Source of the DNA: an uncultured Bacteroidales bacterium
GTDB taxonomy: Bacteria > Bacteroidota > Bacteroidia > Bacteroidales > Paludibacteraceae
DNA length: 25,158 nt
Assembly: GCA_902799875.1 (NCBI GenBank)
Contig: CADCCH010000038.1
Location: 1-25,158, forward strand
Direction of reading: 5' to 3'
The position numbers were made by a program, and so were the translations under genes. Under the pieces are notes generated by a model. That model was not told the origin of the DNA. It worked only from the letters and a program-made list of their open reading frames with translations, and did not search any database. Positions 125-4,480 of the stretch are shown in pieces; the first letter of the stretch is position 1, and every line of letters starts with the position of its first letter.

Positions 125-832
125 TTACCAATCGCGGACCCATTCGAGTCCGAAGCGGTTCATCGTGTCACGGTAGCAGAGTTTGTAGGCTCCGTTGTAC
201 TTGACTTGGACGATGTCGCCGCCTTCGTCGCCGCGAAGGAAGGTTGGTTGCGGTTCGGGGAAGTCCACTACAAAGAAGTAGGGATTTGAGTTGTCTCCAT
301 GGTGTCCGGGTGCGCCCTCTTGCGCGGCCTCCACCATCGCCTTTTGTGCGACCTCGGAACGTTGCTCGAAGGCAATTTTTGTAGCGCCTTTCCGGTTGTG
401 ATATTCCGTAGGCATAGTCATAGAGAAATATTCCCAAAATTTTTCAAATAAATCAGTCTGCATGTCTGCTTGCTTTTTATTATTTATATTATTATATAGG
501 GGGGTATGGGGGGAGCGGACTGAATCCGCATTTTCGCGGACTGATTCCGCATTTTCGCGGACTGATTCCGCACTACTACTGCGGACTGAATCCGCACTAC
601 GCCATAAACCATCGGTACAAAGAATAAGGTTCTTTTCCATAAGCGTATTCAATATATTTCTAACGCTCTTTTCGTTTAATCCGAGTAGTTCGGCAAGGTG
701 TCGCTTTGAACCATCGTAGCCCCCTTTAGCCCCATGAGTTAAGCCGTGAATATAAGCAAAGATGCGACATTCTGCGAGAGTTAATTGCAGGTCGTTCCAC
801 ATCCATTCATATTCTTTCACGTAGAGAGTCAT
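125..832 (-). CDS. Winged-helix phage replication initiator-like protein (lambda O-like layout)
   Basis: A 235-residue protein. Residues about 15-75 form a winged-helix DNA-binding domain: LTLAECRIFAYIHG, then a segment with LAELLGLNEKSVRNIL followed by LMEKNLI, as in N-terminal domains of phage replication proteins and replisome organisers. Residues about 78-107 are a low-complexity linker with four copies of A-[DE]-S-V-R. The remainder (from about residue 125) has FWEYF and a helix-rich tail like the C-terminal part of phage initiator or helicase-loader proteins. The linker DNA carries four palindromic repeats and a flanking A/T-rich tract (separate entries). The start codon at 832 sits 3 bp after the stop of the upstream small gene, so translation is probably coupled. 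The alternative is a plasmid or ICE-type helix-turn-helix protein. The wHTH call is fairly secure; the replication role is inference. Confidence 0.6.
   Translation of the reverse strand: MTLYVKEYEWMWNDLQLTLAECRIFAYIHGLTHGAKGGYDGSKRHLAELLGLNEKSVRNILNTLMEKNLILCTDGLWRSADSVRSSSAESVRENAESVRENADSVRSPHTPLYNNINNKKQADMQTDLFEKFWEYFSMTMPTEYHNRKGATKIAFEQRSEVAQKAMVEAAQEGAPGHHGDNSNPYFFVVDFPEPQPTFLRGDEGGDIVQVKYNGAYKLCYRDTMNRFGLEWVRDW
473..595. other. Candidate phage replication origin (iterons plus A/T-rich tract)
   Basis: Next to the four palindromic repeats (515-595), and downstream of them in the direction of the gene, is a tract at 473-498 that is almost entirely A/T (runs of TTTTTATTATTTA and TATATTATTATATA type), separated by a G-rich block at 499-514. 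Known precedent: in phage lambda the origin lies inside gene O, with four dyad-symmetric iterons followed by an A/T-rich unwinding region further along O. The same order is seen here relative to the transcription direction. That this is a working origin is inference from layout only. Confidence 0.5.
515..595. repeat. Four iteron-like 15-bp hyphenated palindromes inside the initiator-like gene
   Basis: Copies lie at 515-529, 536-550, 557-571 and 581-595, each GCGGACTGAWTCCGC. The outer five bases of each copy are exact inverted repeats (GCGGA/TCCGC). Start-to-start spacing is 21, 21 and 24 bp, so copies sit on about the same helix face. Copies 1 and 2 are followed by ATTTTC, copies 3 and 4 by ACTAC. 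In the reading frame of the minus-strand gene they encode A-[DE]-S-V-R. Copy number, dyad symmetry and position in the linker of a DNA-binding protein gene match initiator-binding iterons. A purely protein-level repeat is the competing explanation. Confidence 0.7.
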
Positions 833-1040: not shown

Positions 1041-1209
1041 TTACGAGAGTTTACGGACACGTTCGTAGGACCAGATGGTGTCGATACGCATGGAGCGCCA
1101 GGCTTTGCGGTCGATGTCGTAAAAGGCGACTATGGTGCGATCGTAAGCCTCTTGTTGTTCGGGGGACGATACCTTCGTTGAGGGCTTTACGTAAATCGGG
1201 GATATTCAT
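1041..1209 (-). pseudogene. Small phage-type ORF split by a +1 shift in a C5 run
   Basis: From ATG (complement of 1207-1209) the first frame reads MNIPDLRKALNEGIVP and then degenerates into an Arg/His-rich out-of-frame tail ending at 1051. If one C is removed from the five-C run (G run at 1161-1165 on the plus strand), the frame continues as IVPEQQEAYDRTIVAFYDID and then KAWRSMRID to a TAA at 1041, giving a sensible 55-residue protein. The start is 15 bp after the HNH gene stop. The shift may be a sequencing error in a homopolymer, a real mutation, or recoding; the sequence alone cannot decide. No family recognised. Confidence 0.5.

Positions 1210-2476: not shown

Positions 2477-4480
<2,004 letters not shown>

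Follow-up and report, generated by a model that had tools for sequence, protein, structure and literature searches.

The gene at the left end of the DNA examined here is probably a replication initiator gene with its origin nested in the part that codes for its own linker. The protein of this gut-type bacterial gene very probably binds repeated sites in the gene itself to start replication. A few model systems have an origin that lies within the initiator gene. Lambda O, pSK41 with pPR9, and the PLE of Vibrio cholerae provide precedents, so this kind of system is already known. New, in our view, are the number of classes, a coupling that reaches down to the recognition helix, the paired C-tract and the host group. 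The window, meaning the whole stretch of 25,158 nucleotides analysed, is a chromosomal contig with the host gyrB at 2495-4480.

The gene and its dyad array

The initiator-like gene lies on the minus strand at 125-832. The translation and an AlphaFold2 model (mean pLDDT 69.5) divide its 235-residue product into a winged helix, a linker and a C-terminal domain. The predicted winged helix, which also has fold neighbours, comprises residues 1-81 (590-832, minus strand). Its recognition helix (residues 54-66; 635-673, minus strand) is helical in the model and covaries with the repeats of the linker. The linker (residues 82-125; 458-589, minus strand) has pLDDT below 50, and its coding DNA houses the proposed origin. 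The modelled C-terminal domain comprises residues 127-235 (128-454, minus strand).

The array consists of four copies of GCGGACTGAWTCCGC, read on the plus strand, with start-to-start spacing of 21, 21 and 24 bp (positions 515-595). The copies are GCGGACTGAATCCGC at 515-529, GCGGACTGATTCCGC at 536-550 and again at 557-571, and GCGGACTGAATCCGC at 581-595, and as dyads they are given no strand. Each has 5-nt arms, GCGGA and TCCGC, around a non-symmetric 5-nt centre. They translate to A-[ED]-S-V-R within the predicted disordered linker. The alternation of D and E maps to the non-symmetric centre, and the arms are invariant in the window. With up to three mismatches allowed, the dyad matches the window eight times, and these are the four copies, each on both strands. 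The same search in 100 shuffles of the window found a mean of 1.2 matches and a maximum of 4. As a null model, linkers were recoded by synonymous codons at the codon usage of neighbouring genes. The window linker has 4 palindromes, compared to 0.396 expected from this model (p = 0.001, the floor for 1000 draws). The repeat search, the shuffles and the synonymous null agree, confirming the four 15-bp dyads that the earlier note described in the linker of a winged-helix gene.

In the direction of transcription, the dyads are followed within the linker-coding DNA by a paired C-tract and then by an A/T tract. The paired C-tract (499-513, minus strand) is composed of two C6 runs on the coding strand, at 508-513 and 499-504, which read as G on the plus strand. 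It is absent from the earlier note. The A/T tract beyond the dyads, which that note did describe, is present at 474-498 (no strand assigned). It is A/T at all 25 of its 25 positions and is a putative strand-opening site. A slightly wider stretch, 470-497, is A/T at 26 of 28 positions. The feature was originally drawn at 473-832, a span that takes in both the array and the A/T tract as well as the part for the winged helix, but stops short of the full gene.

Members of the family

A first protein search found 752 proteins at E <= 1e-3, including the query, and a second search, with a distant alignment as the query, found 188 homologues; 120 matches were listed from each. Among the 120 of 752 listed from the first search, inspection by eye showed linkers with short peptides repeated in tandem, and these vary with the helix. 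Linker repeats were seen by eye again among the listed matches of the second search, which have 53 distinct helix segments. A period-7 score was passed by 206 of the 240 listed proteins and by 0 of 240 shuffled ones. The shortened proteins P0081 and P0082 retain a single linker unit.

The closest relatives with a stated source are from uncultured Bacteroidales (RUG14494). Profile matches, many of them partial, are found in 94 of 358 genomes from the taxonomic family of genome G001. They are found in 6 of 393 genomes drawn from the order, and two of these (G001 and G077) belong to that same family. One genome, G154, has four initiator copies, each on a separate contig and each with a half-site of its own.

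The DNA sample started from 65 genes with an N-terminal part in the fetched loci, 52 of which had a usable linker. Short proteins with only a winged helix, proteins of less than 150 residues, and short or masked linkers were left out. Genes cut by a contig end or with a frame broken after the linker (for example, those of L013, L027, L037 and L042) were included up to the linker. Two kinds of shorter gene were also seen. Five loci (L021, L024, L025, L026 and L031) have genes for the C-terminal domain only (107-156 residues), with no winged helix or iterons, in similar modules. Loci L094-L102, with the exception of L099, and L104 encode a short winged-helix protein of about 114-185 residues with the motif QSWML; none came from L103. 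This protein is related to the N-terminal part and by eye has no linker repeats.

Elements after the array

The order of elements in the window is also found in the family. The A/T-richest 25-mer downstream of the array exceeds the one upstream in 50 of the 52 genes (means 0.868 and 0.688). Two runs of at least four C occur within 45 nt after the array in 44 of the 52 genes, compared to 4.2 by synonymous recoding. The C-runs begin in varied codon phases across genes, and the peptides that encode them differ by clade, for example SPHTPL and LPPNNPP, indicating that the paired C-tract is a DNA element. It points to a step of initiation that is not known from lambda.

Profile comparisons show weak similarity to replication initiators and to loaders of the DnaD type. 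The top PHROG match is phrog_6969, of unknown function (1.4e-7), and others are to a replication initiator (6e-5) and a DnaD-like protein (1.4e-4). The model of the N-terminal domain resembles the N-terminal domains of solved initiators, tied with other winged helices, so that the predicted fold matches are not specific. PDB searches with the C-terminal domain gave no match, and no known relative of it appeared in the searches made. HTH_36 (PF13730) is the most common Pfam match; at E <= 1 it is found for 20 of 34 members, with a best value of 1.3e-5. Its cut-off is 25 bits, and P0001, the window protein, scores 17.6 while P0152 scores 25.6. Neither Phage_rep_O (PF04492) nor the RepA_N domain (PF06970) is among the seven families matched by P0001 at E <= 1. 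P0145 matches Phage_rep_O at 0.068, which is under the cut-off. For DnaD_N (PF21984), P0152 scores 25.9 bits, under the cut-off of 27, and P0001 has no entry.

The main alternative to an initiator is an autoregulator, a protein that binds the dyads to block or tune its own transcription, with the array as its operator. The evidence that points to binding suits an operator equally well, the closest PDB sequence matches are transcriptional regulators (best E 0.023), and there are weak Pfam matches of the MarR or Crp type. We nevertheless consider an autoregulator unlikely. An operator does not need an array inside the gene together with a conserved A/T tract and a pair of C-tracts, the PHROG matches point to replication proteins, and the C-terminal domain is large and varies independently. 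The idea of a wider regulon was also considered and rejected. Exact dyads of each class number 84 within the genes they belong to, and none lies in the 490,164 flanking bases of the loci of the 52 genes, where 0.45 are expected, so that no distant operators are seen there.

Recognition helix and half-sites

The recognition helix and the linker repeats change together. Helix and linker were compared in 119 of 120 proteins (P0103, in which the helix anchor is missing, was dropped). With the N- and C-terminal distances held fixed, linker distance tracks helix distance at 0.745 in clade I (85 proteins) and 0.713 in clade II (34 proteins). Partial Mantel tests with a nine-residue helix, in which the wing was also held fixed, gave 0.762 in clade I (85) and 0.591 in clade II (34), values reached by 0 of 1000 permutations. 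Among 35 pairs of clade I proteins with near-identical flanks, 15 have different helices and a linker distance of 0.95, while 12 have the same helix and a linker distance of 0.09. Clade II has nine pairs with near-identical flanks, none of which differ in the helix.

The same trend is seen in the DNA. The partial correlation between half-site and helix is modest: 0.264 for 20 genes, a value reached by 3 of 2000 permutations, and 0.350 for 32 genes, reached by 0 of 2000. To compare single positions, 32 rows were reduced to 22 unique clade II pairs, which share descent. Helix position 4 and half-site base -5 have the highest mutual information in these pairs (p = 0.001, the floor of 1000 permutations, with 32 tests). 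In leave-one-out prediction, position 4 gives the right base at -5 in 18 of the 22 pairs, compared to a permuted mean of 6.2 and maximum of 15. With residue groups set post hoc, Met, Glu or Asp goes with C (8/9), Lys or His with G (5/5), and Pro, Val, Gln, Thr or Ser with T (8/8). This pattern agrees with classical contact chemistry. Position 3 has mutual information p values of 0.011-0.012 before correction for the 32 tests, and as a single-base predictor it fails leave-one-out (16/22; permuted mean 14.6). Position 7 fails as well (12/22; permuted mean 9.8).

Helix and linker could correlate from linkage alone, by travelling together in recombining genes, about 60 bp apart, with no functional coupling. 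The family is indeed mosaic, as the 15 clade I pairs with shared flanks and a different helix and linker demonstrate. Between helix and linker lies the wing, and it too correlates with the linker (partial correlation 0.149 in clade I and 0.444 in clade II, both above all 1000 permutations). This persistence shows that linkage adds to the signal, mostly in clade II. As the whole explanation, linkage is very unlikely: the wing accounts for much less than the helix does in clade I, the association at position 4 and base -5 goes down to single residues and bases, though in groups chosen post hoc, and the dyads themselves are left unexplained.

Copies in one genome might be expected to differ in half-site if they were incompatible. 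The same half-site is found in 1 of 15 co-resident pairs and in 48 of 1311 pairs between genomes, so there is no sign of avoidance in this small sample.

Conservation of the dyads

The dyads are kept at the DNA level across the family. The earlier note asked whether palindromes are retained at silent positions in homologues, and they are: the 52 linkers contain 119 palindromes, compared to 18.4 and 18.8 expected in two runs of synonymous recoding, although 9 of the 52 genes lack an exact palindrome in the linker. Homologues with freely varying codons, which that note held would speak against an origin, were looked for, and instead the dyads lie far above the synonymous null. At least one linker palindrome is found in 43 of the 52 genes, compared to 16.0 expected; counting genes rather than copies guards against tandem duplication. 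The excess has p < 0.05 in 31 of the 52 genes. Control stretches do not have a palindrome excess of the linker kind. There are 18 palindromes in 52 N-terminal parts (13.8 expected), 8 in 47 C-terminal parts (11.6 expected), and 69 in 200 pieces of neighbouring genes (57.2 expected).

The sites themselves are diverse. The 52 genes have 27 distinct five-base half-sites. Units in which both arms match the consensus of the gene are present at least once in 35 of the 52 genes, and 17 have none. Of 159 steps from one unit to the next, 152 measure 21 bp, in a chain search limited to steps of 18, 21, 24 and 27. A step of 21 bp preserves both the reading frame and the helical face. The codon register of the dyad mostly differs between the two clades defined by half-site, with 116 of 129 units in phase 0 and 70 of 82 in phase 1. 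Overall, the dyads, their spacing, the C-tract and the A/T tract are kept in DNA, and the dyads and C-tract go beyond what the protein needs.

Selection on the linker peptide as protein, with the dyads as a by-product, would fit the widespread period-7 repeats, but it is highly improbable, since synonymous recoding gives so few of the palindromes, the peptide varies freely between classes while the plan of the dyad is constant, the codon register differs between the clades, and the linker is predicted to be disordered.

Proposed mechanism

As an initiator, the protein would bind the four dyads through the recognition helix of its N-terminal winged helix, probably as dimers. The dyads are 21 or 24 bp apart, which is 7 or 8 codons and about two helical turns. 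The complex of protein and array may then open the nearby A/T tract on the 3' side of the array, beside the paired C-tract. Replication proteins would be recruited by the C-terminal domain, whose variation does not follow that of the sites. Because the gene contains both the reader and its sites, a new specificity would travel as a unit, and this can account for the splitting of the family into many specificity classes.

Comparison with known replication systems

The gene resembles several known initiators in its organization. In lambda, the origin lies in the middle of the initiator gene and has four iterons and an adjoining A/T-rich tract (PMC7466680). The window gene has its dyads and A/T tract in the same order, with the iterons inside the gene and the A/T tract next on the 3' side. 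The lambda-like layout proposed in the earlier note thus stands, and it is spread through the family. In Stx phages, gaining or losing iteron units alters the linker by whole residues (PMC7466680), and here too the number of units changes the linker by whole residues. Unlike lambda, the window gene has a paired C-tract between its array and A/T tract, P0001 has no Phage_rep_O match, the family was not found in phage or viral records, and Pfam and PHROG comparisons of the downstream genes c4, c8 and c7 led to no recognised partner P gene.

In the RepA_N initiator of pSK41, the Rep boxes lie in the gene, the origin encodes the linker, and the C-terminal domain is host-specific (PMC5703833). Initiators of this type are also characterised by a DnaD-like C-terminal domain of five helices that binds primase. 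The window gene is similar in layout alone: sites inside the gene and a linker encoded by the putative origin. It differs in that P0001 lacks the RepA_N domain. In pPR9, an N-terminal domain of pfam13730 has been exchanged along with the origin, and the C-terminal domain is more than 97% identical (PMC5703833). The same independence is seen here, where the N-terminal part and array move separately from the C-terminal part in the clade I swap pairs and the partial correlations, and the pPR9 domain is also the most frequent Pfam match among members. In contrast to pPR9, P0001 is under the HTH_36 cut-off, and the exchange is finer, involving chiefly the helix and array, with tens of classes.

In the RepA of the PLE of Vibrio cholerae, the RepA_N domain covaries with the origin and the C-terminal part is shared; cognate pairs of RepA and origin are required, and swapping has occurred at least twice (PMC8263062). 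The DNA-binding part likewise covaries with the sites in the window family. The PLE origin is intergenic and the PLE has two modules, whereas here the sites are intragenic and the half-sites far more numerous. A phage nuclease that mimics the PLE initiator has also been described (PMC8263062). By analogy, the best reading is that the family may work like lambda O and its origin, pSK41 RepA_N and PLE RepA, while by sequence it does not belong with them. A literature search that covered few subscription journals found no paper on an origin nested in an initiator gene from Bacteroidota.

Implications

The family may be useful for the study of winged-helix specificity. Because the helix and its sites are in one sequence and there are hundreds of genes, base-by-base change of target can be read from alignments, and the natural variants allow such change to be tested. 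The initiators would also supply orthogonal pairs of initiator and origin for Bacteroidales, and they would offer a first way into the study of a small, undescribed element often found beside restriction-modification genes.

A broader reading is tentative, and we lean slightly against it: that one bacterial family carries many small replicons inserted in the chromosome, with initiators that have diverged into tens of specificities, forming a self-labelled recognition code for the winged helix. If true, the code would include, for example, Asp, Glu or Met at helix position 4 for C, Lys or His for G, and a small residue or Pro for T at base -5. Such splitting may be driven by incompatibility among elements that share a genome, or by the evasion of nucleases that target the origin, as with PLE and ICP1. 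On this reading, the paired C-tract would count as a novel component of an origin, and the module, with its restriction-modification genes, as a new type of element.

Genomic context

The carrier of the gene was previously taken to be a phage, and this is not borne out. Searches with tblastn found 0 matches in 50,697 phage records and 0 in 72,556 plasmid records, and scans of IMG/VR found no encoded relative. The modules are chromosomal in Bacteroidales, and in the window the host gyrB is nearby. The pattern of the C-tract led to two overlapping IMG/VR contigs (L117 and L118) as candidates for a viral origin, but their matches are non-coding and have no iterons, and they were judged to be unrelated.

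The initiator is part of a common module whose composition differs among loci. Its genes are c2, HNH (c1), WYL_2 (c3) or c14, c15, the initiator, c4, c8, c7, c6, DUF5675 (c9), c10 and c5. By eye, c6 is membrane-like and c10 lipoprotein-like; c15 is zinc-ribbon-like, under the cut-off. Representatives of the downstream genes c4, c8 and c7 have zero Pfam or PHROG matches. The small proteins of c4, c5 and c8 (L054, L056, L058 and L059) have a similar start, I-x-SLSGSLG-like, and no Pfam match. In the window, the HNH endonuclease gene is at 1225-1860 on the minus strand (PF13392, HNH_3, 2.8e-12), and its cluster c1 is found in 27 of the 36 loci compared. The other open module genes there are a 56-residue frame at 836-1006 and an 84-residue frame at 1944-2198. 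Positions 1041-1209 (minus strand) contain a remnant of WYL_2 (c3), with the start and the C-terminal half readable in different frames.

We interpret the module as an element that is mobile or once was. Matches to structural proteins, terminases and integrases are absent among the module proteins scanned, and a satellite or cryptic phage is possible. In eight loci (L036, L049, L055, L059, L061, L066, L067 and L073), restriction-modification genes lie upstream of the module and differ from locus to locus. Eight upstream proteins from eight loci, chosen by appearance, all match restriction-modification models (8/8), of types I, II, IIG and III.

The boundaries of the element were examined in several loci. 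A gene flanking the L054 module is present in 17 of 31 genomes. An empty site was not found in 11 loci from relatives, where the gene from the other side of the module never adjoins it (in two cases the locus stops about 100 bp or less from the gene). By eye, the flanks after c5 and before c11 have no shared element end. Only L054 has a 20-nt inverted match in these flanks, and this is perhaps a common genomic repeat.

Among the first nine profile matches listed, seven have the 3' end of the gene less than 700 bp from a contig end, and one is cut at the 5' end. Contigs break less than 700 bp past the 3' end of the initiator in the window, L003, L004, L007-L010 and L034, which suggests repeated or multi-copy sequence there. 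Upstream of the c11 gene in L035, L059 and L068, runs of C8 or C9 are found just inside a possible true start of c11, and these runs could make c11 phase-variable.
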